Positions 8,062-45,665 of a stretch of 46,041 bases of DNA are shown in pieces. The stretch's first letter is position 1. Every line of letters begins with the position of its first letter. The notes below the pieces were generated by a model, which was not told the DNA's origin, did not search any database, and worked only from the letters and a program-made list of their open reading frames with translations. This DNA is from Rhodobacter sp. Its GTDB lineage: Bacteria > Pseudomonadota > Alphaproteobacteria > Rhodobacterales > Rhodobacteraceae. A program made the position numbers and the translations under genes. The stretch spans positions 1 to 46,041 of the forward strand of contig PNJK01000022.1 of NCBI GenBank assembly GCA_013821825.1. The letters are read 5' to 3'.

Positions 8062-10103
8062 CCCACCAAGCAAGCCGAGCCGCAACCGAAACTGAAACCA
8101 TCGTTTACGTCTGCCCGATGCACCCGGAGGTGCGGCAGAACGGTCCGGGCAATTGCCCGAAATGCGGGATGCATCTTGTGCCCGAGGCGGACGCTGCCGC
8201 CCATGCCGCGCACGATCACCACGCGCATGATCATCACGCAGGCGTCGCCCCGATGGACGGCAGATAACATACCGTCCCCGATGGCTATGATGGGGCCGTC
8301 TATACTTGTCCTATGCACCCGACCGTCCGTCAACCGGAGCCGAGATCCTGCCCGATCTGCGGCGTGGGGCTGCAGCTTGAATCGGCGGCGATGGCGGGGG
8401 AGGTCCGACCCGGAACTCGTCATTCTCACCCGTCGTTTCTGGATCGGCACGGTCCTGACCACACCGCTGCCGGTTCTGACTATGGGGCCTATCTCGGCGA
8501 TCCCGACGTGCGCGAGATTTTCGACGAGCGCACAACCTCTGGATCGAGCTGGTTCTCGGAACCCTTTGATCCTTTGGTGCGGCTGGCCGTTTACGGTGCG
8601 CGGCTGGAATTCCTTCCGGACGATGAACCTCAACATGCTCTCGCTGATAAGCATGGGCGTGATGGCGGCCTGGGTATTCAGCGTCGTCGCCGTTCTGGCG
8701 TCGGGCACTCTCCCCGACGGGTTCCCTGACGCAGAGGGTCATGTGGGCGTCTACTTCGAAGCGGCCGCCTTCATCGTCACACCGGTGCTGCTCGGTCAGG
8801 TGATGGAGGCGAGGCGTGTCGGGCCCGACATGATGCTGGCACTGATCGTCGAGATGGTGTCGAACGCGCAGCATTCGGGGGCGCCGATCCAGAAATTCGC
8901 CAACAGGGTGTCGGGTTAATTCGTTCCGCTTGTGATCGGCATAGCGGTTCTGTCCCACATCGTCTGCGCAATCTGGGGTCCGGCACCGGCATTGTCCTAC
9001 GCGCTGATCGCCGCTGTCGCGGTATTGATCATCGCCTGCCCCTGTGCGCTCGGCCTCGCCACTCCGATGTCAATCATGACTAACAACGGGCGCGAAGAGC
9101 AGGCCGGCGTTCTGATCAAGAACGCCGAGGCGCTGGAGCGGTTCGAGAGGGTCGATACCCGGATCGTTGACAAGACCGGCACGCTGACGATGGGCAAGCC
9201 GAAGCCTTTCGCCGTCATGCCCGAGGAAGGCCCTGACGAGGTCGAGGTCCTGCGCCTCGCCGCCTCGCTCGAGCGCGGATCGGAGCATCAGCTTGCCGAA
9301 GCCATAGTCAAGGGCGCGGATGAGCGAAACGTGAAGATGGCCAACGCTGACGACTTCGAGGCGGTCCCCGGCACGGGCGTCAAGGGGGTCGTCGAAGGCA
9401 AGGCGGTCGCGCTTGGAAATCTGGCAATGATCCGCGAGCTGGGGCTTGAGGCAGGCGATCCGACGGCTAAGGCGAGACGGTGATGTTCTTGGTGCTGGAT
9501 GGCAAGATCGCCGGTTTTGTCGCTGTCGCCGACCCGGTGAAGGAAACCACGCCAGCGGCTATCAAGGAGCTGCATGAACTGGAGTTCCGCGTCATCATGG
9601 CGACCGGTGACAACGAACGCACGGCCAAAGCCATCGGCGCGCGTCTCGGCAGTGACGAGATCCGGGCCGACGTGCTGCCCGAGGACAAGGCGCGGATCAT
9701 CAAGGAGTTGCAGCAGGAGGGCCGCAAGGTCGCCATGGCGGGAGATGGCGTCAACGATGCCTCCGCGCTGGCGCAGGCCGATGTCGGCATCGCAATGGGA
9801 CCGGCGCCGATGTGGCCATCGAAAGCGCGGGCTTCACACTGGTCAAGGGCAACCTCGACGGGATCGTGCGTGCGCGGCGGCTGGCCCGAGCCACCATGTG
9901 GAACATCCGCCAGAACCTGTTCTTCGCGCTGATCTACGACGCCTCTGGCGTGCCGGTCGCGGCGGGCGTCCTGTTCCCCTTCTTCGGCATCCTCATCGGC
10001 CCGATGTTTGCTTCCTTCGCCATGAGCGCCTCATCGATCCCCGTGGTACTCAATTCGTTGCGGATTCGCGGCGCGAAGATGCAGGAACGGATATTCAGCA
10101 TGA
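8058..10103 (+). pseudogene. copA: Copper-transporting P-type ATPase CopA, multiply disrupted
   Basis: Reading frames are pieced together. Two Cys-rich heavy-metal-binding modules come first (YVCPMHPEVRQNGPGNCPKC, then YTCPMHPTVRQ), split by TAA 8265-8267. A frameshift near 8395 follows, then membrane segments (MNLNMLSLISMGVMAAWVFS). A deletion after LLGQVMEARR removes the actuator domain with its TGE loop. TAA 8917-8919 precedes the CPC helix (IIACPCALGLATP) and DKTGTLT. A small deletion and frameshift occur at about 9480, [10 protein letters not shown] follows, and a one-base loss sits near 9801. The end reads FAMSASSIP. It cannot make a working P1B-type copper pump. Confidence 0.92.
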
Positions 10104-29422: not shown

Positions 29423-30076
29423 TCAGGCGCTGCTCACCTTGTTGCCTTCTTCGGCGGGATAAAGATAGGCCGTCACGCCAAGCTGGACCTGATCGTACAA
29501 CTCGTTGATGTGCGGCATGACCATGCGCACACAGCCAGAACTTGCCCGACTGCCGATCGAGCGCGGAACGGGCGTGCCATGGATCCGCAGATAGGTGTCA
29601 CGGTCGCCGAGGTAAAGATAAAGCGCGCGCGATCCCAGGGCGTTGGTCGGGCCTGGCTCCACCCCGCCGGCGAATTTCGCGTAGATCTCTGGCTCACGCG
29701 CGATCATTTGCGGCGTGGGCGTCCACCTGGGCCATTTCGCCTTGCGCCCCACGGTGTAGGTGCCCGGCTCGTAGAGCCCGCCACGACCGATGGCGACGCC
29801 ATAGCGCATCGCTGTCCCATCCGGCATGATGTGGTAAAGATACCGGGCAATCGCATCCACATGGATGTCGCCGGGAACCAGCCCGGGGCGGGCCTCGACG
29901 CGTGTCGGCAACAGGCGCGGATTCAGGCCCCAGGGATTCGTGGTTGCCGGGTCATAGCCGGGCGGCGTCACCTCGGCGTCCCAGGCGTCCCACTGGTCCT
30001 GGAAATTCGATGCAGCCAAAGCCGGTGAGGAAATCAGCGCGGCAGTGGCCATCAGAAATTGGCGTCGATCGGGCAT
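29423..30076 (-). CDS. LD-transpeptidase (YkuD family), copy 1
   Basis: A 217-aa periplasmic enzyme that makes or remodels 3-3 crosslinks in peptidoglycan, or attaches lipoprotein to it. A signal peptide (DRRQFLMATAALISSPALA) precedes the catalytic domain, whose active-site block has HGTPVP (His166) and SRASSGCVRM (nucleophile Cys182). The start at 30076 is chosen because the leader begins there. It stands apart from its neighbours in a minus-strand unit of its own. Copy 2 lies at 45002-45562 and is only distantly similar. Confidence 0.9.
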   Translation of the reverse strand: MPDRRQFLMATAALISSPALAASNFQDQWDAWDAEVTPPGYDPATTNPWGLNPRLLPTRVEARPGLVPGDIHVDAIARYLYHIMPDGTAMRYGVAIGRGGLYEPGTYTVGRKAKWPRWTPTPQMIAREPEIYAKFAGGVEPGPTNALGSRALYLYLGDRDTYLRIHGTPVPRSIGSRASSGCVRMVMPHINELYDQVQLGVTAYLYPAEEGNKVSSA

Positions 30077-30367: not shown

Positions 30368-31813
30368 ATGGAAGAACGGAAGCTACAGAACACTTTGCCA
30401 CGGAGAGCTTTGGTTGGGCTCCTTCTCGCGACCGCTGCCGGCATCAGCCTGATTATTGCTTTGCCGCCTCACTCTGTTGCGCCGCTTGCCCTGGTCGCTT
30501 TCGGCCTGCTGGCTGTCCTCCCGCTGGGCCAGTCTGCATTCAAAGCTTCAGGCTTCGGCTACGTCCTTGGCCTCGGTCGATTTGTTCCCGGGCTCTTGTG
30601 GATCACCGAAAGCTTCCAGGTCGAAGCGGACCGGTTCGGATGGTTGGCTCTGCCCGCGGTTCTTGGCCTTGCCGCTCTCCTGTCAGTCTTTCGCGCCTTG
30701 GCCCGCAATTTGGCGGCGCGGATGGAGCGCGCCGGATTGCCGCTGGCGGTCTGGATCGCGACAGGCTGGACCGCCATGAAATGGCTGCGCGGACATGCTC
30801 TCACCGGGTTTCCGTGGAACCTTGCCGCCTACACGCTGGCCGACTGGTTGATTGCAGCGCAAGCGTCCTCCGAGGTCGGGAATTATGGGCTGGGTTATCC
30901 TCTGGTGCTGAGCGCTGCGCTTGCCGGACTGGCCTTCTTTACGCCTGACGGAAAGTTCCGCGTCGTTCAACCGAACATCCCGCAAAGTGCCAAGTGGGAC
31001 GAAGGCTCCCGAAAAGCGGACATCCTCCGGCTTCCGGCGCTTTCTGCGCGCCCCGGCGATTACGATATCCTGCTCTGGCCAGAAACGGCCTGGCCGGGGT
31101 CCCTCGCAGAAGACACTGGCGCACGCGTCATGCTTGGCTGGCTCTTGCCAGAGACCGGCGTGTTGTTGGCGGGCAGTCCGGAGCGGGGGGCCGAAACGGC
31201 CGGGACGGAGTGCCGAAATGCCGTTATTGCCATCTCTCCTGACGGTACCGTCCTGGCCCGCCACGCCAAACATCTCCTTGTGGCGTTCGGTAAACACATT
31301 CCACGGCGAGATCTCTTGCCATTCCAGCGTCTTGTTCAATCCTTCGGCGATTTCTTGCCCGGTCCGCGACCCTGCACCCTCGCTCTCGGCCCGTATCCTT
31401 CCGCTGGGGTCGCGATTGGCTGCGAGATCATCTTTCCCAGGCATGTCGTCGACGACGCGATTCGACCGGACCGGATCTTCAATGCAACGAACGACGCGTG
31501 GTTCGGTGCCTCCATGGGGCCATGGCAACATCTCACATCAGCCCGGATGCGGGCAATTGAAGACGGCCTTCCACTCGTGCGGGCCGCGAACACCGGAATC
31601 CCGGCCGTGGTCGATGCCTACGGCGCAACTTTGGCCATGCTGGATATCGAGACGTCGGGCGTCATCAATAGACGCATGCCCCGCCCGCTGCCGCCGACCC
31701 TCTACGCCCGTTTCGGAGACTGGACCGTTCTCCAACACGTGCTCGTTTCATGGGGCGTCTGTGGTTACTGGGGCCGGCGGCAACAGGCCTACCTGAAGGG
31801 AACATCGACATGA
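30368..31813 (+). CDS. lnt: Apolipoprotein N-acyltransferase paralogue
   Basis: A 481-aa membrane enzyme expected to add the third acyl chain to lipoproteins. Hydrophobic N-terminal half with about six helices including GFPWNLAAYTLADWL, then a nitrilase-like domain. The catalytic Glu is in LWPETAWPG, Lys in HAKHLLVAFGKHIPRR, and Cys in VAIGCEIIFP, with FNATNDAWFG later. The usual KxxLVPFGEY motif is altered (LLVAFGKH) and CYEIIFP is GCEIIFP. The membrane part is shorter than in housekeeping Lnt, so this is probably an accessory copy. Start 30368 begins MEERKLQN. It overlaps the next gene by ATGA. Confidence 0.85.
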   Translation: MEERKLQNTLPRRALVGLLLATAAGISLIIALPPHSVAPLALVAFGLLAVLPLGQSAFKASGFGYVLGLGRFVPGLLWITESFQVEADRFGWLALPAVLGLAALLSVFRALARNLAARMERAGLPLAVWIATGWTAMKWLRGHALTGFPWNLAAYTLADWLIAAQASSEVGNYGLGYPLVLSAALAGLAFFTPDGKFRVVQPNIPQSAKWDEGSRKADILRLPALSARPGDYDILLWPETAWPGSLAEDTGARVMLGWLLPETGVLLAGSPERGAETAGTECRNAVIAISPDGTVLARHAKHLLVAFGKHIPRRDLLPFQRLVQSFGDFLPGPRPCTLALGPYPSAGVAIGCEIIFPRHVVDDAIRPDRIFNATNDAWFGASMGPWQHLTSARMRAIEDGLPLVRAANTGIPAVVDAYGATLAMLDIETSGVINRRMPRPLPPTLYARFGDWTVLQHVLVSWGVCGYWGRRQQAYLKGTST

Positions 31814-32089: not shown

Positions 32090-32683
32090 ATGCGCCTCAG
32101 TCACCTGCAAATCATTCTTTGGGTCGCTGCTGCGGCGGCTGCCATCGCTTTCGCGGCGCTACGGTGGTCGTCTGCAACCGACGGCAAGGCGGTGGCTGGT
32201 CCGGCCTTCACACCCTCTTTCACGCTTGCAGACAGCGAAGGTCGTGTCAGAACGACTGCCGAGTTCCGCGGAAAGTTCCTTCTCGTGTTCTTTGGTTTCA
32301 CGAGCTGTCCCGACGTCTGTCCGACCACGCTCTCGGAAGTCGCGCAGATCATGGATGACCTCGGGTCGGACGCCGCATTGGTCCAGCCGATCTTCATTTC
32401 GATCGATCCAGACCGGGACAGGCAGCTTGGTCTGGCCGAATACACCACGGCCTTTCATCCCTCGATCCTCGGTCTGGCCGGAAGCGAGGCGGACACACGT
32501 TCGGCGGCCGCGAGCTTCAAGATCTTTTACGGGCGTGAGACCGACTCTTCTGCCCCCGACGGCTACACCATGGCGCATAGTCCCGGACTCTTTCTGATCG
32601 ACCCGAACGGTGAGTGGCTCCGCCAGTTTGGCTTTGGCACGCCTGCCGCCGAAATCCTCTCCGACCTTCAATCGAGATTCTGA
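32090..32683 (+). CDS. SCO1/SenC-family copper protein
   Basis: A 197-aa membrane-anchored thioredoxin-fold protein: one N-terminal helix (residues 8-25), then copper ligands Cys73 and Cys77 in FFGFTSCPDVCPTTLSEV and His163 in YTMAHSPGLFLID. SCO proteins deliver copper to, or keep thiols reduced in, the CuA site of cytochrome oxidase, and related roles exist in copper stress. Start at 32090 begins the hydrophobic leader. It lies 3 bp before a PCuAC gene, its common partner, so both probably act together. Confidence 0.92.
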   Translation: MRLSHLQIILWVAAAAAAIAFAALRWSSATDGKAVAGPAFTPSFTLADSEGRVRTTAEFRGKFLLVFFGFTSCPDVCPTTLSEVAQIMDDLGSDAALVQPIFISIDPDRDRQLGLAEYTTAFHPSILGLAGSEADTRSAAASFKIFYGRETDSSAPDGYTMAHSPGLFLIDPNGEWLRQFGFGTPAAEILSDLQSRF

Positions 32684-34739: not shown

Positions 34740-36230
34740 TTACGCCGAAACCGAGAACTCGGTCATCATGCCCGACGCCAGGTGGGGCATGTGGTGGCAG
34801 TGCAGCATCCAGCGGGCCGCTTCGCCCGCATCCACCGCGACCGTGACCATGCTCATCGGCGCCACGTGGACGGTGTCGCGCACCGCACCCGAGAACCGGT
34901 TCCCGCCAATACCGACCACCTGGAAGGCGTGGCCGTGCAGGTGCATCGGATGACCCATCATCGACATGTTGTGGAAGGTGATCTCGACACGCTCGCCGGA
35001 TTTGGCGGTAACCGGAATGTGGCTGCCCCAGGTCTGCCCGTTGATGGTCCAGACATAGGGCATCATCGAGCCACCCAGCATCAGCATCGGTTGCGATACC
35101 GGCGCACGTTCGGGCAGCGGATTGACGGCGCGAAGCGCGGCTTCTTGCGTCAGATCGCCGCTGAAGGCGGGATACTCGCTGTCGGCCAGTCCGGCAATCC
35201 TGGTCACGGCGGCACCAGGAGTGGCAAGGATCACCCCCGTCCGCTCGCGCGCGCCTTCGCGCAGCGCAAGGATCGGGAAGGCCCCGCCATCACCCGGCAC
35301 GTCTACCTCGATGTCCAGCCGCTGGCCCATTGCCACGCCGAACCGGCTGCCAGGCAGGGGTTTCACCAGCTCGCCATCGACCGCGACCAGCCGACCCGGC
35401 AGGCTGCCGGTGTCGATCCAGAACACGGTCGCCGCCGCCGCGTTGATCACGCGGATCAGAACCCGTCCGCCCTTGTCGACCTGCACCACCTCGGGGTCGT
35501 CGAGCGTGCGGTCATTGGCAAGATAGGCATCGAAGTTGAAGTCGTTGAGATCCATCTCCATGCCAGGAGCCATGCCGGTCATGCCCTGCATGTTGCTCAT
35601 ATCCATGCCGGCCATATCCATGCCCTGCATATTGCCCATGTCCATGCCCTGCATATTGCCCATGTCCATGCCGGCCATGCCTTCCATGGCTTCGCCGCCG
35701 AGGATCTCGGCCAGCACCTCGGCCGCCGGGCGGAACGAGAAGTCGTGCAGGAACAGCACCACTTCCTGGCGATCGGCCGCAACATCCTCGGGCGTGCGAA
35801 CGATCAGCGGGGCGGCCAGCAGTTCCATCTCCTGCACCGCGATATGGCTGTGCATCCAGTGGGTGCCGGGCCGGGCCGCAAAGTCATAGCTGCGGGTCTC
35901 GCCAGGGACGATGGCCGACATCGGGATGTCGGGCACGCCGTCCTGGGCATTGGGCGGGATCTGCCCGTGCCAGTGGATGATCGTGTTTTCGGCCAGCTCG
36001 TTCGTCAGATCGACGCGAAAGCGCTGGCCGGGGTCAAGCACCAGGCCGATGCCTCCGGCGGCGTTCACCGCGCCCTTCACCGTGGCCGCCCGGCCGCCGA
36101 TGTCAAGGACACGCGTGGTCGCGCGCAGGGACAGGACATCCGAAGCCGCCCAAGCGCGGGCAGGCAGGATGAGCGAGGCGGACGTGGCCGCTGAAACGGC
36201 CAGAAAGCCGCGGCGAGTAAGCGTAGTCAT
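34740..36230 (-). CDS. Three-domain multicopper oxidase, CueO/PcoA-like
   Basis: A 496-aa Tat-exported oxidase (TRRGFLAVSAATSASLIL leader). Copper ligands are HWHG (86-89), HWMHSH (124-129), HPMHLHGH and HCHHMPHLASGM. A Met-rich insert (about residues 182-226) has repeated GMDMGNMQ, as in CueO and PcoA, where Met sites bind Cu(I). It oxidises Cu(I) to Cu(II) in the periplasm. The start at 36230 has AGGAGAA upstream. It is the second gene of a unit that begins with a CQQHC protein. Confidence 0.93.
   Translation of the reverse strand: MTTLTRRGFLAVSAATSASLILPARAWAASDVLSLRATTRVLDIGGRAATVKGAVNAAGGIGLVLDPGQRFRVDLTNELAENTIIHWHGQIPPNAQDGVPDIPMSAIVPGETRSYDFAARPGTHWMHSHIAVQEMELLAAPLIVRTPEDVAADRQEVVLFLHDFSFRPAAEVLAEILGGEAMEGMAGMDMGNMQGMDMGNMQGMDMAGMDMSNMQGMTGMAPGMEMDLNDFNFDAYLANDRTLDDPEVVQVDKGGRVLIRVINAAAATVFWIDTGSLPGRLVAVDGELVKPLPGSRFGVAMGQRLDIEVDVPGDGGAFPILALREGARERTGVILATPGAAVTRIAGLADSEYPAFSGDLTQEAALRAVNPLPERAPVSQPMLMLGGSMMPYVWTINGQTWGSHIPVTAKSGERVEITFHNMSMMGHPMHLHGHAFQVVGIGGNRFSGAVRDTVHVAPMSMVTVAVDAGEAARWMLHCHHMPHLASGMMTEFSVSA
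35617..35664 (-). repeat. Exact 24-nt tandem duplication in Met-rich insert
   Basis: Two identical 24-nt units (35617-35640 and 35641-35664) encode the octapeptide GNMQGMDM-type repeat on the minus strand. The repeat lengthens the Met-rich insert of the oxidase. Identity without synonymous change implies a recent duplication. Confidence 0.85.
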
Positions 36231-37445: not shown

Positions 37446-37540
37446 TTTCTGCGTGATAATTCCCGCAACGAGCGATACTTCTCTCGCCACGCGAGGCCGC
37501 CAGCAGTATGTTTCCCGTAGATTGCGAAACGAGGTCTACG

Positions 37541-38008
37541 ATGAAAATAACGCGCCGTACCATTCTCCTTGCGGGACCGGGTCTCATTGCCATCACCGCC
37601 ACGCCATTGCTGGCCGAAGCGGATGAGCAGATCCATGTGGTCAAGGATCCCGGCTGTCCCTGCTGCAATGCCTGGATCGGTTACCTTCGCGACAACGGTT
37701 TCAATGTCAGCTTCGAGGAGCGCAGTGTCGAAGACCTCGCGATCTACAAGCGCGAGCGCGGCATCCCGGAAGCGCTGTCCTCCTGTCACACTGCGACCAT
37801 CGGCGACTACACCGTCGAAGGCCACGTCCCCGCCGCCGATATCCGTCGCCTGGTCGCCGAACGCCCCGCTGCGGTCGGGCTTACCGTTCCGGGCATGCCG
37901 ATGGGCTCGCCCGGCATGGGGCCGGAGAGCGCGCGCCAGGCCTACGACGTTCTTCTCGTCGGTCTGGACGGCAGCAGCAGCGTCTTCACCAGCTATCCGG
38001 CTGCCTGA
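37541..38008 (+). CDS. DUF411 metal-binding protein, copy 2
   Basis: A 155-aa paralogue of the protein at 33618. Leader ITRRTILLAGPGLIAI, then IHVVKDPGCPCCNAWIGYL, LSSCHTATIGDYTVEGHVP and VPGMPMGSPGM. The start at 37541 (MKITRR) is preferred over 37508 because the leader begins there. It lacks close neighbours on the strand, ends at a bidirectional hairpin, and probably binds copper in the periplasm like its paralogue. Confidence 0.9.
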   Translation: MKITRRTILLAGPGLIAITATPLLAEADEQIHVVKDPGCPCCNAWIGYLRDNGFNVSFEERSVEDLAIYKRERGIPEALSSCHTATIGDYTVEGHVPAADIRRLVAERPAAVGLTVPGMPMGSPGMGPESARQAYDVLLVGLDGSSSVFTSYPAA

Positions 38009-38025: not shown

Positions 38026-38046
38026 GGGCTGCCGTCAGGGCAGCCC
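38026..38046. terminator. Bidirectional hairpin between convergent genes
   Basis: GGGCTGCC and GGCAGCCC form a perfect 8-bp stem with loop GTCAG. It lies at the ends of the DUF411 gene (stop 38008) and the minus-strand gene ending at 38035, and can act for both. Confidence 0.7.
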
Positions 38047-38688
38047 GGCTTCGGTTGACTGCCAGGCGGCTTGCAGCGCAGCCTGCGGGCTTACGCCGTC
38101 AAGCGGTCTGACCGCGACATCCAGCCGTCGCGCAGCATAATAGGCCGTGGCCGCCATCACACCAGGCGCCGTGCCATAGGCGAGGCGGTAGCGCGCCGCG
38201 AAGTCGTCCATCCGGTCGTCACTGTCCCATCCCTCGGGCAGCATCGCTTGCATGAGGACGGTGCTTGCCGAGAGATACTCGCGCGCCGCTTCGCTGGCGG
38301 CGGGCTCGGGGCCAAGGACGATGACGACATCGGCAGGCTCGACCGGCGAGCCGATCAGGCCCTCGACCAGCCCGGCGGCGTCGCGCGGCAGAGGAAGTAT
38401 CTGCACGTCAACCCCGCCCAAGTGCCCGTCAGAGGTTTCGCTCGCGTGCCCGTCCCGCTCATCCGCCGCGAGCAGAAAACCCCGGACTGCTTCCGCGAGG
38501 CTTGCCTCACGGTTTTCGCCGAAGACCAGAAGCGCGGCAGTGAACGAATGCGCAGAAGCGATCCCTGACAGAACCATCCAGAACGCCGCCACCCGGACGA
38601 CGCCGCTGAATATGGTCTTGCCCCCCGCCAATGCCGCGAAGGCGGATCGGCGAAGGCTTGCCGGAACGCGCCGCAATAAGATGCTCAT
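38035..38688 (-). CDS. Periplasmic-binding-fold fragment-like protein
   Basis: A 217-aa secreted protein with a hydrophobic segment (GVVRVAAFWMVLSGIASAHS) and a mature part reading VDVQILPLPRDAAGLVEGLI, PADVVIVLGPEPAASEAA, DDFAARYRLAYGTAPGVMAA. The last part resembles the C-lobe of Leu/Ile/Val-type binding proteins, but the length is only half the usual. Translation is coupled to the DsbA-like gene (ATGA at 38688/38685). Ligand unknown; a chaperone-type partner of the oxidoreductase is possible. Confidence 0.6.
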   Translation of the reverse strand: MSILLRRVPASLRRSAFAALAGGKTIFSGVVRVAAFWMVLSGIASAHSFTAALLVFGENREASLAEAVRGFLLAADERDGHASETSDGHLGGVDVQILPLPRDAAGLVEGLIGSPVEPADVVIVLGPEPAASEAAREYLSASTVLMQAMLPEGWDSDDRMDDFAARYRLAYGTAPGVMAATAYYAARRLDVAVRPLDGVSPQAALQAAWQSTEAGLP

Positions 38689-39413
38689 TCCGCGGCTCGT
38701 GCGGCGGCCACACTTTCGGACAACTGCGCCTTTTGGACGAAGCCCGGGATCAGCTGATCGCCCACGACAAAAGAAGGCGTTCCATTGAAGCCAAGCGCCT
38801 CGGCCAGGCGCATCGACGTCGCGATATGCTCGTCGACCTCGGGCGCCTGCATGTCGGCTTTCAGCTTTTCGACATCCAATCCGATTTCGCCGGCAACCCG
38901 CAGCACCGAGTCGGCCTCGACCTTGCCGCGCATGCCCATGAGGGCTTTGTGAAACTCGATATACTTGCCCTGTTTCCGCGATGCGAGCGCGGCGCGGGCG
39001 GCGAAGACCGACCCTTCGCCCAATATCGGCCACTCGCGCAGAGCCAGGCGGACACCTCCATCCTCGGCCAGCAGCGCGTCGACTTCCGGCATGGCCCGCT
39101 TGCAGTAGGGGCAGTTGTAGTCGAAGAACTCCACGACCGTGACATCGCCGTCGGGATTGCCCAGCACCGGCGCGTTGGGATCACGTTCCAGCATGTCCCG
39201 CTGATTAGCCAGAACCGCAGCCGCGGCGGCCTCTTGCGCTTCTGCTTGCCGCGCTTCGAGGGCCTGCAATGCCTCCAGTATCAGCTCGGGGTTCTCCCGC
39301 AGCGCCTCGGCCACCAGAGCCTTGATCCGCTCATCGGAAATCTCCTGCGCGAATGACGGGCCGGAAATCGAGACCCAGAGGGCGCTGGTAAGCAACAGGA
39401 ATTTGGCGCGCAT
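38685..39413 (-). CDS. DsbA-family thiol-disulfide oxidoreductase
   Basis: A 242-aa secreted protein: signal peptide (1-22), a helical spacer with Ala/Glu-rich coil (about 25-75), then the thioredoxin domain with FFDYNCPYCKRAMPE (Cys101, Cys104) and cis-Pro GTPSFVVGD. The long helical N-part is typical of the Com1/ScsC/BdbD type, some of which protect against copper by keeping thiols correct. It starts at 39413, and 106 bp separate it from the end of the upstream cytochrome gene. Confidence 0.9.
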   Translation of the reverse strand: MRAKFLLLTSALWVSISGPSFAQEISDERIKALVAEALRENPELILEALQALEARQAEAQEAAAAAVLANQRDMLERDPNAPVLGNPDGDVTVVEFFDYNCPYCKRAMPEVDALLAEDGGVRLALREWPILGEGSVFAARAALASRKQGKYIEFHKALMGMRGKVEADSVLRVAGEIGLDVEKLKADMQAPEVDEHIATSMRLAEALGFNGTPSFVVGDQLIPGFVQKAQLSESVAAARAAE

Positions 39414-39519: not shown

Positions 39520-39984
39520 TCATGGCTCACCGGCCTCGAGGGTGCTGCGCTCTTCCTGCTGAGCCCGAATATCCTCGGGCCAGGTGGACTTGATGTAGTC
39601 CAGAACCACATTGATTTCCTCGTCTGTCAAGCGGCCGCCAAAGCCGGGCATGCCCGAGGGGAAGTCGACGCCCATATCGTCCAGAGCCGCCTGCCCGCCG
39701 CGCTTGATATAGTCGAACAGCATGGTGTCGCCGTGATGCCATGTGTGGCCGTTCTCGTCATGCGGCGGCGCGGGATAGGTTCCGTCCTCGTTGCCTGTTC
39801 GCCAGTTCGGTTGTCCCTCGAGATTCGCGCCGTGGCAGGAGGCGCAGTTTGCGGTGTAGATCGCGCGGCCCTGTTCAAGATCCGGGCCGCTGTGAAAGAA
39901 GGCGCGCGCCTGTGACGTGGACAGCAAGAAGACCGCCATAGCCCATGCGGCCGCGGCGAGTTCCATCTTGCCAGGTGTTCGCAT
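39520..39984 (-). CDS. Mono-haem cytochrome c, small
   Basis: A 154-aa secreted protein with a signal peptide ending near ARA (residue 28), haem motif CASCH (Cys47, Cys50, His51), and a probable Met ligand in FPSGMPGF. The sequence DLEQGRAIYTANCASCHGAN and LTDEEINVVLDYIKSTWP is usual for class I periplasmic cytochromes that carry electrons to or from oxidases and dehydrogenases. It lies 8 bp after the PBP2 gene and is the last gene of the operon that starts at 45562. Confidence 0.92.
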   Translation of the reverse strand: MRTPGKMELAAAAWAMAVFLLSTSQARAFFHSGPDLEQGRAIYTANCASCHGANLEGQPNWRTGNEDGTYPAPPHDENGHTWHHGDTMLFDYIKRGGQAALDDMGVDFPSGMPGFGGRLTDEEINVVLDYIKSTWPEDIRAQQEERSTLEAGEP

Positions 39985-39992
39985 AGCCGCCC

Positions 39993-41948
39993 TCACGTCC
40001 GGCTCACTGTGATCGGTGCCTCCCCATCCGGCGGGAGTATCTGCTCGGAAAGGAGCCCCAGATCCTCCCGGACCCGCGCCCTCTGTGCTGTCGGATAGGC
40101 ATCTTCGGGGGGCACGCCCCCATACTGTGCGAAAAGCATGATGTCGCGCGCAATCGGCGCCGCTGCGGTCGACCCGCCACCCCCATGTTCCACCACGACG
40201 GTTACTGCATATCGGGGCGCGTCGAAGGGTGCGTAGGCCACAAACAGCGCGTGGTCTCGCTGGTCCCAGGGCAATTCCTCTTGTGACCGGATACCTGCGG
40301 CGCGCTCGGCCGCCGTAATGGAAAAGACCTGGCTCGTCCCGGTCTTCCCGGCCATGGCCTTTGTCACATCGGCGATCCGCGACCCGTAGGCCGTCCCGCG
40401 CTCGTGGTTCGAGACCTCGAACATGCCCTGCCGCACGATCTGAAGCGCCTCTGCCGAAAGCCCCAGCGACGCCGCAGCTGGTTCCTCCTGACCGGTCCCA
40501 CCAAGCGGGCGCACAAGGCGCGGCAATACCGCCGTTCCCGAGGCCAGGCGCGCGGTCATCGTTGCAAGCTGGATCGGCGAAGCAAGGGTGTAACCCTGCC
40601 CAATCGAGGCATTGATCGTGTCGCCGATCAACCACTCCTGCCCGTAGCGCTCTTGCTTCCAGGCGCGTGTCGGGTTGTTGCCGTGCACTATGCCTGAGAG
40701 AGGGAGGTCGTACTTCTTGCCCAGTCCGAGACGGTCGTTCATCGCGAAGATGCCGTCGATCCCGATCCGTTGCGCGACTTCGTAGAAGTAGACATCGCAG
40801 GATTCCCGCAGCGCGCCGACCATGTTCACCCGCCCGTGCCCGCCGGTCTTCCAGCAATGGAACCTGCGACCAGAGATCTCGACAAAGCCCCTGCAGGTCA
40901 CCGTTTCTTCGGGGTCCATGACACCGGTTTCCAGCGCGGCCAGCGCGTTCGACATCTTGATCGTGGATCCAGGAGGATAGGCGCCCTGCACGGTCTTGTC
41001 GGCGAGAGGACGATACTCGTTGTCGCGCAGCGCGCCGTACTCCTTGCTCGAAATTCCCCGGACGAAGAGGTTCGGGTCGAAGGCGGGTGCCGAAGTGCAA
41101 CCGAGGAGATCACCGTTCGTCACGTCCATAACGATCGCCGCCGCGCTTTGCCCCTCAAGGCGCACCCGCATGAAGTTCTGCAAGTGATGGTCGAGCGTGA
41201 TCTGCATGTCGGGACCAGGGGCCGGCGGATCAAGTGCCAGCTCGCGCATGGTTCTGCCACCGGCATTGACCTCGACGCGCTGTGCCCCGGGTTCTCCGCG
41301 CAGGTCTCCCTCGCGGATGCGCTCGATCCCGGTCTTGCCGATCTGATAGTCGGGCAGGCGCAAGAGAGGATCAGATTCGCCTTCCGCGACCGTCAGATCG
41401 CTTTCACTGACCGGTCCCACATAGCCGACCTGATGCGCGAAGTCCGGGCCGAAAGGATAGACCCGCGACAGCACCATCTCGGGGTAGATGCCGGGCAGGG
41501 CCGGGGCATTCAGGGCGACGATCGACAGTTCCTCCCAGGTGACCCGGTCTTTCACCGTGATCGGAACGAAGGCTTGAACACGGTCGGTCTGCTCACGGAT
41601 CTTCGCCAAAGTCTCAGCGTCCAGACCTAGCAGCACTTGCAGCTTCTCCAGAACGCCGTCGACATCCCGGACTTCTTCCGGCACCAGCGTGATGCGGTAG
41701 GCCTGCTCGTTGTCCGCAACGATCTTTCCGGCTCTGTCGAAGATGCGCCCCCGGTCAGGGCGCACGAGCCTCAAGCTGATCCGGTTTTCCTCAGCCAGAA
41801 GATAATATTGCTCGGCATCGCGGACGCCCAGTTGCCACATCCGGACACCAAGCAGGCCGACCACCGAGGTCATCGCCCCCCCGAGCAACAGGGACCGCCG
41901 CGTGGTCATCCGTGCGGCCTGTGCAAGATCACGTTCAGACCGGCGCAT
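39993..41948 (-). CDS. mrdA: Penicillin-binding protein 2 paralogue
   Basis: A 651-aa class B PBP: one N-terminal helix (residues 19-38), the non-catalytic domain with RPDRGRIFDRAG, and a transpeptidase domain with PPGSTIKM (Ser328, Lys331), SCD (383-385) and KTGT (535-538). PBP2 crosslinks peptidoglycan for cylindrical growth. Placement in an operon with cytochromes, apart from rodA or mre genes, implies an accessory copy. The start at 41948 has AGGGGGAGGAACC upstream and overlaps the preceding gene by 14 bp. The usual second motif SxN is SCD here. Confidence 0.9.
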   Translation of the reverse strand: MRRSERDLAQAARMTTRRSLLLGGAMTSVVGLLGVRMWQLGVRDAEQYYLLAEENRISLRLVRPDRGRIFDRAGKIVADNEQAYRITLVPEEVRDVDGVLEKLQVLLGLDAETLAKIREQTDRVQAFVPITVKDRVTWEELSIVALNAPALPGIYPEMVLSRVYPFGPDFAHQVGYVGPVSESDLTVAEGESDPLLRLPDYQIGKTGIERIREGDLRGEPGAQRVEVNAGGRTMRELALDPPAPGPDMQITLDHHLQNFMRVRLEGQSAAAIVMDVTNGDLLGCTSAPAFDPNLFVRGISSKEYGALRDNEYRPLADKTVQGAYPPGSTIKMSNALAALETGVMDPEETVTCRGFVEISGRRFHCWKTGGHGRVNMVGALRESCDVYFYEVAQRIGIDGIFAMNDRLGLGKKYDLPLSGIVHGNNPTRAWKQERYGQEWLIGDTINASIGQGYTLASPIQLATMTARLASGTAVLPRLVRPLGGTGQEEPAAASLGLSAEALQIVRQGMFEVSNHERGTAYGSRIADVTKAMAGKTGTSQVFSITAAERAAGIRSQEELPWDQRDHALFVAYAPFDAPRYAVTVVVEHGGGGSTAAAPIARDIMLFAQYGGVPPEDAYPTAQRARVREDLGLLSEQILPPDGEAPITVSRT

Positions 41949-42678
41949 GGTTCCTCCCCCTCCCTGACAGTTCGGAAGCGCCCTTGGCGCGGATCGTCCG
42001 CAGGTAAGCTGCGGCCCGCAGTCCAAAGACCAAGACCACCAGCCCGACGAACCAGAATTGAAGCGGGTTCGGCTCCGGCGTTTCCCGGTGGAAGCTCAGG
42101 AAGTGCATGAACAGGAAGTAGGCGACATGAGCCACCGTCAGCCACCAGAGCGGGAGAACGCCCATCTGCAGGAACTTCCAGCCGGACAGGCCAAGTCGGC
42201 GCATCGCAAAATCGCTCGAAGTTGCGGCCAGCAGCACCGCGAGGACCAGTGCCGCGATCCCGATGGCATTGGCGAGCCCGAACCCAGGCTGGAACATGAC
42301 GTATACCAAGAGTTCGGGATGCCACTCGAATCCGAAAAGCCGCATCAGGTCCCACTGCACCCAACCGACAAGGATTATTGCCGCATGCACGAAAGCCAGA
42401 AGGCAGCCGTGGATCCCCGTCTCCCGGCGGAACGGCAGCAGCTGCTGGGCCGGGCGCAGAAGGCGCGCGAGGGGGCCCAGTCCCACCGACAGCGCAACCA
42501 ACACAAGCGACGCATCCCCGATCGCGCGGTTCCAGCGATGCATCGGGCTCCACTCGGCGTGGACGGTCGCAAAGCCCGCCACCAGACCCGCTGCGACAAG
42601 GGCCGTCAGCCCGTGCCGAACAGAAGCTTTTCGGACAAGCCGACGGAATGATCCGACTTGACCCGACAAGATCGTCAT
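41935..42678 (-). CDS. Ferric-reductase-like haem membrane protein
   Basis: A 247-aa protein with about six helices and paired His residues: ETGIHGCLLAFVHAAIILVG and LPLWWLTVAHVAYFLFMHFL. The arrangement matches the ferric reductase-like transmembrane domain (MsrQ/YedZ and NOX type), which binds two b-haems and moves electrons across the membrane. No NAD or FAD domain is present, so electrons must come from another carrier. It starts at an ATGA overlap with the upstream gene and overlaps PBP2 by 14 bp. Confidence 0.85.
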   Translation of the reverse strand: MTILSGQVGSFRRLVRKASVRHGLTALVAAGLVAGFATVHAEWSPMHRWNRAIGDASLVLVALSVGLGPLARLLRPAQQLLPFRRETGIHGCLLAFVHAAIILVGWVQWDLMRLFGFEWHPELLVYVMFQPGFGLANAIGIAALVLAVLLAATSSDFAMRRLGLSGWKFLQMGVLPLWWLTVAHVAYFLFMHFLSFHRETPEPNPLQFWFVGLVVLVFGLRAAAYLRTIRAKGASELSGRGRNHAPV

Positions 42679-43166
42679 TTCAGTTCTCCCTGCATTGATT
42701 CCACCTTTTCCTGCACTGTCGCGCCGCTGTTCCGGGGGACGATAAATCTGCGCCACGTGCTTAGGGCCGCGAAGCCCATGATGACCACCCCCACTGCGGC
42801 AAGCCACGGCCTGATCGGGTCGAACCAGACGAGCAAAGCTGGTCCACTGAACAGAAGCATCAGCACCTTGTTGCATACCGGACAGGCGATCCCGAGGAAA
42901 CTGGCAATCCCGCCCGTCCCGGATCCGCGCAACGTGCACTGCGGTACCCAGAACGCCGCCGTCACGCCGGCCAGCAACGCCGTCAGGACAGTGGCCCCGA
43001 ACTCCCACGAGCCGATGGGCGTCATGCGGACAAACAAGGGGTTCGCCCAGACCGCCGTCACTGTGCCCAGGACCGCAAACAGCGCCAGGCCAACGGCGGT
43101 GCCGCGAAACCCTCTGCGCAGGGCGTCCTCGTGCCGTGCCAGTATTCCTGCTGCATCACTTGGCAT
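42675..43166 (-). CDS. Membrane protein with CPVCNK motif
   Basis: A 163-aa protein with about four helices. Cys77 (WVPQCTL) and Cys95/Cys98 in GIACPVCNKVLMLLFSG are likely to sit at a membrane face. A CPxC pair in a helix can carry redox or soft-metal chemistry, as in VKOR-like proteins or copper ATPases. I recognise no family. The ATG lies inside the preceding FixH/YtkA-like gene with an 11-bp overlap. Confidence 0.7.
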   Translation of the reverse strand: MPSDAAGILARHEDALRRGFRGTAVGLALFAVLGTVTAVWANPLFVRMTPIGSWEFGATVLTALLAGVTAAFWVPQCTLRGSGTGGIASFLGIACPVCNKVLMLLFSGPALLVWFDPIRPWLAAVGVVIMGFAALSTWRRFIVPRNSGATVQEKVESMQGELK

Positions 43167-43584
43167 CGAATTCCATCTCCGCGAAATCTTCGCCGATGCC
43201 GACATTGACGACCCAGCGACCGGCCATCGGCAGTTTGACATTGGCCCTCCAAACGCCGGATTCGACCAGTTCAAGCGGCGGTTCGAACCCGTTCATGTTC
43301 ATGCCGACCATCGCGAAGTAGACGTTCGGGCGCATGGGGTCCGTCTCGATCGCGTCAGCGTTGGGCATGAACTGGATCTCGAGTCGAACATTGCGGTTTC
43401 CGAGCGCAAAGATCTGGGCGTCCAGGCGACCATCCGACAGTGCTTCGGAAACCGATGCCGTTGGTGCGATGCCTTCTGTGGATGCCAGCTCCGCCGCCGG
43501 AGGTCTGAGTGCTGCCCAGATGAATGTGCCGACGAAGACAAGGAACCCAACAGCGATCAAGATGGCCAAGACTCTAGTTTTCAT
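43156..43584 (-). CDS. YtkA/FixH-like periplasmic protein
   Basis: A 142-aa protein with an N-terminal membrane anchor (VLAILIAVGFLVFVGTFIWA) and a beta-rich domain ending NVYFAMVGMNMNGFEPPLEL, GVWRANVKLPMAGRWVVNV. The Met motif VGMNMNG and the last half fit the YtkA-like/FixH group, which helps supply copper to oxidases. It overlaps the upstream cytochrome gene by 11 bp. Cu binding is inferred from the family and the surrounding genes. Confidence 0.8.
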   Translation of the reverse strand: MKTRVLAILIAVGFLVFVGTFIWAALRPPAAELASTEGIAPTASVSEALSDGRLDAQIFALGNRNVRLEIQFMPNADAIETDPMRPNVYFAMVGMNMNGFEPPLELVESGVWRANVKLPMAGRWVVNVGIGEDFAEMEFDAK

Positions 43585-44463
43585 TTGTCATATCCATCCG
43601 CGAATGATCCACGCCCGCCATCGGTGTGCCGGTTGCTGGAGGGGTGAGCGTGGGGATCGTGCCCGTGCCCTCGGGGTCGAGCGGGTAGGTTGCGATGGCC
43701 ACTCGGTCGGCGTCGGTCAGGTACGAGGTGCCCTCGGCCACGACCGCGGCCATGCTGCCACCGAAGGCATCCCCGTTGGGCAGCAGCCCCGACTGGAGCG
43801 CATAAGCCAGGTTCGCGACTGTCCACTCTCGTCCGTCCAGGTCGGCAACCAGGATCGACGGAGCTTTGCTGCCGCCGGGAAGGCTGTCGTTCCCGGCAAA
43901 GCTTGCGGCTTCGTCCAGGCCACCGGCAAGCGTCCGGCCCGTGTGGCAGGCCGCGCAATGCGCCACCCCTTCGACCAGCAGGCGCCCTCGGTTCCAGGGC
44001 AAGGATGTGCCCATCAGCGCATCGGTGGTCGGCGGGTCAAGGTAAGCGGCGCGCCAAAGCTTCAACCCCGACCGGAAGCTGAAGGGAAACTCCACATCAT
44101 GCGCAGGGGCGACTTCCGCGGCGGGCGAAACGGTGCGGAACGCCTCCCGCAAGTCGGCAATATCCTGGTCGGTGAAGCCCGCGTAGAACGAATAGGTGAA
44201 AACCGGATAATACGGGTCTGGGAACAGCGCCAGCATGATCTCGCCAGCGTGGCCGGCAATGGCACTTGCGCCCTCCGAGACGATGAAAGTGTCGCAGGAG
44301 ACCGCGCCCTGCATCATCGGTGCCAGTTCCGCGATGGTGTCACGCATTGCCGTCATTCCGTTCATCCGATCGAGGGCGACACCCGTCGCCCCGTATGTGC
44401 CAACGCCACCGCCAAGACCGCGGAGACGGCAAGCGCTATCGCGCCCGTCCATAGAGGTTTCAT
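43574..44463 (-). CDS. Larger mono-haem cytochrome c, frameshift in leader
   Basis: The mature part reads MTAMRDTIAELAPMMQGAVS, LMGTSLPWNRGRLLVEG, HCAACHTGRTLAGGLDEA, SKAPSILVADLDGREW, and shows one CxxCH. It resembles the cytochrome c subunits that partner periplasmic dehydrogenases. ATG 44463 starts MKPLWTGAIALAVSAVLAVA, a good signal peptide in another frame. Adding one G to the four-G run at 44389-44392 joins both parts to 296 residues without a stop. Either the gene is frameshifted or the run is misread; as given, only starts near 44365 would yield product, without a leader. Overlaps the next gene by 11 bp. Confidence 0.8.
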
Positions 44464-44628
44464 CTGCCTGACTGCCTTGGTTTCTTTTTTTGATCGATAG
44501 CCACGCCCAGCCGGTCAAGCCGGTCGCACGCTGCAGGGGTATCTTGTGTCAGGCTAAGAAGATATCGAACTTGGGTCAGCCGCTCAGACTGCGCCGCCAA
44601 ATCTTCGAACGTTCGTTTGGCCCGACAA
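44464..44628 (-). other. Coding-like remnant in another frame
   Basis: A minus-strand frame of about 60 codons reads LEAWRDCRAKRTFEDLAAQS, ERLTQVRYLLSLTQ, ACDRLDRLGVAID before its stop at 44460. It has natural amino-acid use and no stop, and partly overlaps the end of the small secreted protein's gene in a different frame. No ATG with a ribosome site is seen. It may be the displaced C-terminus of a frameshifted gene. Confidence 0.3.
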
Positions 44629-44925
44629 TCACGCCAGGCTTCGAGGGGGACGGAGCGTGATGGTCGGACCGCCAAAACGACGCAGCGACTGGGCGGGGCC
44701 GGGCAGAAGAAAAGCCACTGCCGGATTGGGCAGCTTCGACGCCAAAGCCTCGGGCACGACAAAGGCGGTGCAGATGACGCCGGGATGGCAAGCGGGCACC
44801 GCCGCCGGTTCGAAGTCATCTGCGTTCTCAACCAAGAGGTCGGCATGATGTTCGTCGACCGACCCGGCCTCTGCCCACTGTCCCAGCACCAGTGCCAGGA
44901 CCAGCACGACGGACAGGAGCCGCAT
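44629..44925 (-). CDS. 98-aa secreted hypothetical protein
   Basis: Signal peptide MRLLSVVLVLALVLGQWAEA, then an acidic mature part with EHHADLLVEN and FEPAAVPACHPGVICTAFVV. Two Cys bracket HPGVI and could form a disulfide or metal site. The end is Arg/Pro-rich. I know no family. It follows the LD-transpeptidase gene (ends 45002) and precedes the cytochrome gene. Start 44925 is where the leader begins. Confidence 0.6.
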   Translation of the reverse strand: MRLLSVVLVLALVLGQWAEAGSVDEHHADLLVENADDFEPAAVPACHPGVICTAFVVPEALASKLPNPAVAFLLPGPAQSLRRFGGPTITLRPPRSLA

Positions 44926-45001
44926 TGACGCGTACCGCAGCAACCTGCTTGCAGGCAGGTCCTGCCGAGCGGTCGATGGGGTCGCCTTCGATTTCATCCG
45001 T

Positions 45002-45562
45002 TCAGATCAGCTTGACCTGCGTTCCAACCGGAGTGCGGTCGAAAACCTCTTCGATGTGCTCGTTGTAAAGCCCGATGCAGCCGTTCGACGAGCGGCGGCC
45101 GATCTTGCGCGTGTCTTGGGTCCCATGAATCCGGTAGTACTGCCACGACAGATAGAGGGCACGTGTGCCAAGCGGGTTGCTCGGGTCGCCTCCAGGCACG
45201 AACGCCGGCCATTCCGGGTTGCGCTCCCGCATCGACGGCGTCGGTGCCCAACTCGGGTTTACCCTTTTCTCGACAACCTCGGTGTACCCCCGGCGGGTCA
45301 ACTCGTCCGACAACGGGACAGAGCTTGGATAGAGATACATCTGACCATCGCTCGTCCATTGCTGGAGAATGCGGGCGTTCGTGTCGGCAATGATGATTCC
45401 CACCCCGAGAGCGTCAAAGTGATCCTGCCACTCGTTGGTCTGGAAGGCCGAGATGTTGTTGCGAACCGGGCCCCGGTTGTCTTCCGAAGCAAAGGCTGCA
45501 CGACCGGTCACGAAGGGCGTAGCAAGTGCTCCGGCAACAAAAAGTCGTCGACTGAATTTCAT
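45002..45562 (-). CDS. LD-transpeptidase (YkuD family), copy 2
   Basis: A 186-aa periplasmic enzyme. The leader (SRRLFVAGALATPFVTG) has a twin-arginine look. The catalytic block has YYRIHGTQD (His146) and RRSSNGCIGLYN (Cys162). The region VNPSWAPTPSMRERNP is typical of ErfK/YbiS-like LD-transpeptidases that couple Braun-type lipoproteins or make 3-3 bonds. GAGGAGCAG precedes the ATG at 45562. It is the first gene of the minus-strand run down to 39520. Confidence 0.9.
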   Translation of the reverse strand: MKFSRRLFVAGALATPFVTGRAAFASEDNRGPVRNNISAFQTNEWQDHFDALGVGIIIADTNARILQQWTSDGQMYLYPSSVPLSDELTRRGYTEVVEKRVNPSWAPTPSMRERNPEWPAFVPGGDPSNPLGTRALYLSWQYYRIHGTQDTRKIGRRSSNGCIGLYNEHIEEVFDRTPVGTQVKLI

Positions 45563-45665
45563 GGTCTGCTCCTCTTTTTTGAAAGCTGTGTCGCCTTCCA
45601 AGATGGGAAGGTCAAATAGCTTTGCATCGCTGAAGGGTCACAAACAGGTGAATGCGTGGTGTTTT

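Follow-up and report, generated by a model that had tools for sequence, protein, structure and literature searches.

Copper acts on the bacterial envelope at several points. Lipoprotein acylation, L,D-transpeptidases (LDTs) and disulfides are named as its targets in the accessible part of one account (PMC6593411), and the available sections of another report that copper inhibits V. cholerae LdtA in vitro and that LD-cross-links are lowered in several species (PMC11390936). For excess periplasmic copper, excerpts of a Rhodobacter capsulatus paper give cytochrome c maturation as a major target (PMC8456105). The excerpts seen of PMC8275575 describe a mobile element on which copper induces lit2, a gene transcribed together with lgt2 and with copper genes. 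These copper-induced lit2/lgt2 genes of Gram-positive mobile elements are the nearest precedent for the locus described here, a gene block on contig PNJK01000022.1 of Rhodobacter sp. (assembly GCA_013821825.1) that encodes an LDT and a second penicillin-binding protein 2 (PBP2) together with cytochromes and haem and thiol membrane proteins. The block is part of a mobile copper-resistance island, and we consider it probable that its LDT and PBP2 are stand-in transpeptidases for wall synthesis under copper, made with a periplasmic copper- and thiol-redox module. No description of this gene set was found in the literature searched, which comprised titles, abstract starts and passages, with most subscription journals outside it.

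The stretch analyzed (the window, 46,041 nucleotides) is one whole contig of a 4.0-Mb draft genome in 234 contigs, and the closest named relatives of the block are in the Paracoccaceae. Genes were called by reading the sequence and by comparison with Pfam and NCBIfam models against their cut-offs. Reading down the minus strand from 45562 to 38685, the block encodes an LDT, a small secreted protein, a cytochrome remnant, a YtkA-like protein, a membrane protein with a CPVCNK motif (hereafter CPxC), a ferric-reductase-like protein, PBP2, a monohaem cytochrome c and a DsbA-like protein:

45594–45615, minus strand: CueR/MerR-like dyad TTGACCTTCC-N6-GGAAGG, a predicted operator-promoter 31 bp upstream of the LDT start.
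45002–45562, minus strand: L,D-transpeptidase (YkuD) with a signal sequence, its catalytic SSNGCIG intact and the catalytic His and Cys present (PF03734, 78.7 bits, cut-off 23.4).
44629–44997, minus strand: small secreted protein, fast evolving (ratio of nonsynonymous to synonymous substitution rates, dN/dS, 0.23–0.57), with no Pfam family above cut-off.
43574–44463, minus strand: remnant joining the 5' part of a cytochrome c' gene to the 3' part of a dihaem cytochrome c gene, from alignment with three relatives.
43156–43584, minus strand: YtkA/FixH-like membrane-anchored periplasmic protein with a conserved Met cluster (M92, M97, M120), below Pfam cut-offs.
42675–43166, minus strand: CPxC (CPVCNK) helical membrane protein, no Pfam or NCBIfam family above cut-off.
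41935–42678, minus strand: ferric-reductase-like transmembrane haem protein (PF01794, 34.4 bits, cut-off 28).
39993–41948, minus strand: PBP2 (MrdA) paralogue of the island clade, with STIK328, SCD383 and KTGTS535 intact (TIGR03423, 677.9 bits, cut-off 455).
39520–39984, minus strand: monohaem cytochrome c (PF00034, 50.6 bits).
38685–39413, minus strand: DsbA-like thiol oxidoreductase with a ScsC_N domain (PF01323, 91.6 bits; PF18312, 36.7 bits).

An earlier, sequence-only reading had proposed a single overlapping operon, and the junctions it gave, overlaps of 11, 11, 4 and 14 bp and an 8-bp gap, are borne out. Annotated junctions in relatives are similarly tight, with overlaps of 11, 11, 4, 20 and 4 bp on Gemmobacter fulvus p5 and of 11, 38, 4, 14 and 4 bp in Tabrizicola piscis. 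The run is real, but its limits differ from those proposed: the LDT and the small protein are separate frames upstream of it (gaps of 4 bp and 165 bp), and the DsbA-like gene, which also lies downstream of the monohaem cytochrome in relatives and is part of the block there, belongs too. Sequence and family models likewise confirm the LDT, PBP2, ferric-reductase-like, CPVCNK and second cytochrome genes, while the first cytochrome is broken. The YtkA/FixH assignment survives as a label only, "YtkA-like", with scores under the cut-offs (PF13115 21.3 bits against 25.9, and FixH 16.3 against 23; PF13115 19.3 against 25.9 in the plasmid locus L006).

The island PBP2 is a member of the PBP2/MrdA family (TIGR03423 above cut-off; SxxK, SxN/D and KTG motifs present) that forms a lineage of its own. 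A tree built from 27 island PBP2s, 16 chromosomal ones and one outgroup placed the island sequences in one group on a long stem with Shimodaira–Hasegawa-like approximate likelihood ratio test (SH-aLRT) support of 100, and a second tree of 15 island and 19 other sequences agreed; both trees are quick searches with SH-aLRT support only. A His pair at 254–255 is conserved in the island clade and rare in chromosomal PBP2. All six family genomes with an island PBP2 also keep the chromosomal one, which in the window genome (contig C48) adjoins mreB, mreC and a RodA-type gene; the island PBP2 is without this mreB/mreC/rodA neighbourhood. Window-type LDTs similarly form one group (SH-aLRT 99) of 15 island sequences and one other, from a genome where no CPxC was found (L126). 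We do not claim the LDT as a member of the 1,3-cross-linking LDTGo type described in the available part of PMC10864386, as the LDTGo structure, 8QZG, was not among its 7 PDB matches at E<=1e-5.

Purifying selection has been strongest on these wall enzymes and on DsbA. Across eight pairs of loci, by a simple counting method in which several dS values exceeded 1, dN/dS was 0.045–0.110 for the LDT, 0.061–0.096 for PBP2 and 0.066–0.135 for DsbA, compared with 0.083–0.271 for cytochrome C, 0.126–0.310 for the reductase, 0.102–0.360 for the YtkA-like protein and 0.116–0.421 for CPxC. PBP2 and the LDT, with DsbA, are thus the most constrained genes of the block, and the wall enzymes are not decaying passengers.

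A predicted regulatory site may tie the block to copper sensing. CueR-controlled promoters carry a CCTTCC-N7-GGAAGG dyad inside a 19-bp-spaced promoter, and the dyad upstream of the LDT resembles it but has an N6 spacer. None of 100 shuffles of the window contained this dyad, and the whole 4.0-Mb genome holds two. Among the 33 relatives with a full window-type LDT and enough upstream sequence, TTGACCTTCC-N6-GGAA stands upstream of the LDT gene in every one (6 different sequences, many of them near-copies), with the full dyad in 20; there are 43 such sites in all across 1.35 Mb. The second dyad of the window genome, on contig C118 (L158, 6190–6324), precedes an LDT copy cut to residues 2–27 and followed by unrelated sequence, the remains of another block start.

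Copper genes surround the block: a CopA-type ATPase, a copper regulator, a multicopper oxidase and chaperones. On Tabrizicola, Neotabrizicola and Gemmobacter plasmids, one flank carries CueR, CopA, DUF305, a second LDT and DsbA, and the other DUF411 and a multicopper oxidase; the Tabrizicola and Gemmobacter plasmids (L006, L008) continue with SCO, PCu(A)C, an M23 peptidase and Lnt, the Neotabrizicola plasmid with a transposase and unrelated genes instead. The island is mobile, as indicated by plasmid copies and by near-identical stretches in different genera, including 20-kb stretches 99.96–99.98% identical in records filed under Tabrizicola and Rhodobacter. The window holds six island genes, along with a secreted protein, and no match to the M23 peptidase was found in it:

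38035–38631, minus strand: secreted protein, no Pfam match, hypothetical in relatives, where it occupies the equivalent place.
37508–38008, plus strand: DUF411 copper-island protein (PF04214, 92.8 bits).
34740–36230, minus strand: multicopper oxidase, 76% to the Tabrizicola plasmid protein.
32687–33160, plus strand: PCu(A)C, in island context.
32090–32683, plus strand: SCO, in island context.
30410–31813, plus strand: Lnt, in island context.
29423–30052, minus strand: another LDT, in island context.

The secreted protein at 38035–38631 comes after DsbA in most full islands. At 8164–10069 the window also holds a CopA-type ATPase gene broken over several frames. Contig C67 of the same genome, which we infer adjoins the window contig, ends with a neighbouring arm (CopA, DUF305, DsbA2, LDT2); contig C163 begins with another copy of the LDT2 end.

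Additional envelope enzymes occur elsewhere on such islands. The Tabrizicola plasmid has LspA and DsbB further along, and a Phaeobacter copper plasmid carries two LDTs, Lgt, LspA, DsbB and an Lnt relative; neither PBP2 nor CPxC had a match in the 24-kb stretch examined there. These repeated copies of LDT, Lnt, LspA, Lgt and Dsb genes therefore make spare envelope-building enzymes a recurrent feature of the islands examined. Since the islands hold LDTs, Lnt/LspA/Lgt, DsbA/DsbB and cytochromes, that is, the steps that copper hits, we read the block as encoding copper-stress stand-ins. Two proposals of the sequence-only reading, a link to copper and a replacement or protection of wall cross-linking, gain support from context, phylogeny, selection and the predicted operator.

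To gauge how general the arrangement is, the contigs of 84,980 species were scanned with a CPxC alignment, which gave 94 confirmed relatives; the best 80 of the 94 were kept and all 80 examined. The counts are of CPxC loci rather than of all copper islands, because the scan started from the window CPxC and retained the best relatives only. Of the 80 loci, 66 have CopA, a multicopper oxidase or CueR, or more than one of these, in the examined stretch. The full set (LDT, both cytochromes, YtkA-like, CPxC, reductase and PBP2) was present in 36 loci, five of which (L028, L050, L052, L056 and L060) have one split or partial gene. PBP2 lay no more than 3.5 kb downstream of CPxC on the same strand in 47 loci, with remnants in 3 more, and in 16 of 42 clusters at 80% identity; this clustering of CPxC with PBP2 is far beyond chance. 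Beyond the 36 full sets, the loci divide into LDT-YtkA-CPxC-reductase without PBP2 (6), LDT-CPxC-reductase only (3, Rhizobiales), CPxC and PBP2 without the reductase (8), reductase and CPxC alone (4), CPxC without any partner of the set (14) and a further nine with other partial combinations, of which some are truncated by the end of a contig. For six of the loci lacking PBP2, less than 2.2 kb of downstream sequence is available, and the number of PBP2-less loci may accordingly be too high.

Of 394 genomes in the family, 7 have CPxC. Six of these 7 have an island-type PBP2; the single PBP2 of the seventh (G234) belongs to the chromosomal group. PBP2s of four genomes (G104, G147, G196 and G292) passed the strict threshold but, falling in the chromosomal clade, were left out of the island count. 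Reductase relatives at E<=1e-25 were found in 7 of 196 genomes of the order. The sequence-only reading had named rarity or constant interruption in relatives as an outcome that would refute it: the block is rare in the family, yet 31 of the 36 full sets are without a split or partial gene among the five checked.

Several records deserve mention in their own right. Three base-for-base identical 20-kb island copies lie on one contig of Pseudogemmobacter bohemicus Cd-10 (L035, L036, L040), either an amplification or an assembly artefact. Plasmid CP070277.1, filed under Dysgonomonadaceae, and Martelella NZ_CP066787.1 are both 166348 long with a near-equal match and are probably a mislabelled co-culture. 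Whole or partial blocks in metagenome-assembled genome (MAG) contigs labelled Verrucomicrobiaceae, Porticoccus and Cyclobacteriaceae (L025, L050, L067) reflect either far transfer or mis-binning. The CPxC family itself extends to Rhodospirillales, Betaproteobacteria and an Acidobacteria MAG (L082–L098), with a multicopper oxidase, CopA or DsbA-like gene at 11 of 17 loci. In viral contigs, 32 stretches fitted the CPxC pattern and none was confirmed, and PADLOC gave no matches for 3 proteins.

Other block proteins show possible signs of a role with copper. A MxGMDHSxM-type Met/His motif, which we take to be of a copper-binding type, occurs in 32 of 46 cytochromes A and 36 of 49 cytochromes B; a scan of 383 other block proteins gave no occurrence. 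An M..[MH].M motif is found in 53 of 54 relatives of the YtkA-like protein. CPxC probably has four membrane helices, as predicted from its sequence, and across a 43-sequence alignment Cys76, Cys94, Cys97 and Met47 are invariant. Its AlphaFold model is of moderate confidence (predicted local distance difference test, pLDDT, 77.9; predicted template modelling score, pTM, 0.61), and a Foldseek comparison with the PDB returned nothing at E<=0.001. Assignment of CPxC as a MerT-like transporter was rejected (PF02411, 9.9 against 32.9 bits; NF033556, 15.8 against 180 bits), as was that of the ferric-reductase-like protein as MsrQ (NCBIfam PRK05419.1-2, 20.8 bits against a cut-off of 130), with no MsrP among the block genes.

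What had been taken for a first cytochrome c gene at 44463–43574 is instead a remnant of two genes with a deletion and a frameshift. The frame from the ATG at 44463 stops early, and the long frame 44518–43574 is without a signal peptide. Alignment to the Tabrizicola piscis, Neotabrizicola shimadae and Gemmobacter fulvus plasmids reveals a 1-base shift after the signal peptide and the absence of about 740 bp, covering the 3' part of the cytochrome c' gene and the 5' part of the dihaem cytochrome gene. Both genes are intact in the relatives (the cytochrome c' of L006 is PF01322 by Pfam). The remnant retains one CxxCH and the copper-type tail MAGVDHSRMDM. The absent piece was not found elsewhere in the assembly, where nothing else matches but a protein on C7 with 41% identity. 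The break may be either real decay or an assembly fault.

We propose that periplasmic copper would poison cysteine-dependent envelope enzymes, LD-transpeptidases included, and that the island LDT and PBP2, probably induced by a copper-sensing MerR-type regulator, would keep cross-linking going under copper. PBP2 would add DD-cross-linking capacity, presumably with the host RodA, and the cytochromes, the Met-rich YtkA-like protein, the CPxC thiol protein, the haem-b reductase and DsbA may act as a copper-handling and thiol-redox module that keeps the periplasm fit for wall enzymes. Copper induction, activity under copper, the partnership with RodA, copper binding and the direction of electron flow are all features that we infer.

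Several observations weigh against this proposal. The right arm of the dyad is altered at 13 of the 33 sites, and the regulator may not be CueR, because the LDT dyad has a 6-bp spacer while that of the island copA promoter is 7 bp. Island PBP2s are not clearly poorer in potential copper ligands than chromosomal ones (Cys 4.1 against 4.7, His 11.8 against 10.5, Met 17.6 against 16.9), so there is no sign of copper-hardening by ligand loss, which we rejected. We know of no report that PBP2 is copper sensitive, and for that reason its supply of DD-cross-links when LD-cross-linking fails is a suggestion of ours. LDTs of island loci are not one clade, those of the L061 and L068 types falling elsewhere in a tree with few well-supported branches. 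Fourteen of the 80 CPxC loci show none of the three copper markers, 8 of them on stretches longer than 20 kb and some on short contigs, and the counts overstate independent events because many loci are near-copies. With the first two cytochromes broken, the whole module may not work in this genome. Finally, the reductase occurs without a CPxC match in 24-kb stretches of Phaeobacter and Paracoccus plasmid copper islands.

This last point bears equally on a more direct form of redox coupling, which we regard as unlikely: that the reductase takes quinone-pool electrons and, via CPxC (and YtkA/DsbA), keeps the LDT cysteine reduced and copper-free, as MsrQ feeds MsrP. It would fit the three invariant cysteines of CPxC and the status of LDTs as cysteine enzymes inhibited by copper, as given in the accessible parts of PMC11390936 and PMC6593411. 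In 9 of the 80 loci LDT, CPxC and reductase stand together without PBP2 and cytochromes A and B (in 3 of the 9 the contig ends soon after), and 3 of the 9 are Rhizobiales loci with a different LDT. However, CPxC and PBP2 persist without the reductase in 8 loci, 2 of which have an LDT in reach, the MsrQ cut-off is not reached and no MsrP-like partner was seen among the block genes. The CPxC pair lies in a predicted helix and might face either side of the membrane. The specific version in which respiration would power a relay from the quinone pool through the haem-b reductase and an intramembrane CPxC thiol pair to the periplasm, so that the wall enzyme's catalytic cysteine stays reduced and copper-free, strikes us as distinctly unlikely. 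A transfer of electrons straight from the haem carriers to the transpeptidases, implied by the sequence-only reading, is conjectural: as a serine enzyme PBP2 offers no evident redox handle, this genome has a broken first cytochrome and the set comes apart. PBP2 is present without the reductase in 8 of the 80 loci, and LDT and reductase without PBP2 in 10, of which three (L068, L073 and L084) lie on contigs that may stop short of a PBP2.

That the wall enzymes are mobile-element passengers, co-transferred without a functional link to the redox genes, is quite improbable in our estimation. The mobility of the island and its rarity in the family would be expected of passengers, but the strong constraint on PBP2 and the LDT, the overlapping reading frames that are kept and the persistence of the CPxC-PBP2 pair down to about 60% PBP2 identity and through loss of neighbouring genes would not. 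We give very little credence to a drug-tolerance pair of a second PBP2 and a beta-lactam-insensitive LDT. Acquired second PBPs are a known resistance route, and LDTs reportedly bypass PBPs in E. coli (Peters 2018); against this, no gene annotated as a beta-lactamase was seen in three plasmid stretches with the block, the surroundings are copper-related and the PBP2 motifs are ordinary. Stand-in wall enzymes for copper stress thus remain the reading we favour. If true, it would be natural evidence that copper toxicity genuinely strikes the wall, would connect copper resistance with the biology of the cell wall and would supply transpeptidases, possibly copper-tolerant, for testing. CPxC in turn is a membrane thiol family for which Pfam and NCBIfam have no model, found alongside copper genes beyond Rhodobacterales.

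Several described systems share features with the block. MsrPQ, the periplasmic system for methionine sulfoxide repair, likewise pairs a membrane haem-b protein from the ferric-reductase superfamily with a periplasmic enzyme that may be damaged by copper or oxidants, but in the block no MsrP is seen and the MsrQ model reaches 20.8 of 130 bits. The chromosomal PBP2/MrdA of the elongasome shares family, domain order and catalytic motifs with the island copy (53–59% identity), yet it has mreBC/rodA beside it, whereas the island copy forms a separate clade, lacks these neighbours and resides in copper islands. On Paracoccus aerodenitrificans p1 (L011, 18280–21607), a cytochrome-cytochrome-multicopper oxidase-cytochrome-DsbA operon shares its order with the block, with cytochromes A, B and C at 37%, 63% and 58% and DsbA at 66%, and carries a multicopper oxidase in place of the block's YtkA-CPxC-reductase-PBP2. 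Closest in kind are lit2 and lgt2 of Listeria monocytogenes and Enterococcus (Armbruster et al. 2019, as cited in the available part of PMC8275575), where, as in the block, an envelope enzyme with a housekeeping role has a second copy, carried on a mobile element, beside copper-resistance genes; in the part compared, the block matches this kind, with its second envelope-enzyme copy on a copper island. On the evidence of those excerpts, lit2/lgt2 concern Gram-positive lipoprotein acylation with induction shown, while the block concerns alphaproteobacterial peptidoglycan cross-linking, adds haem and thiol proteins, and has an induction that is predicted.

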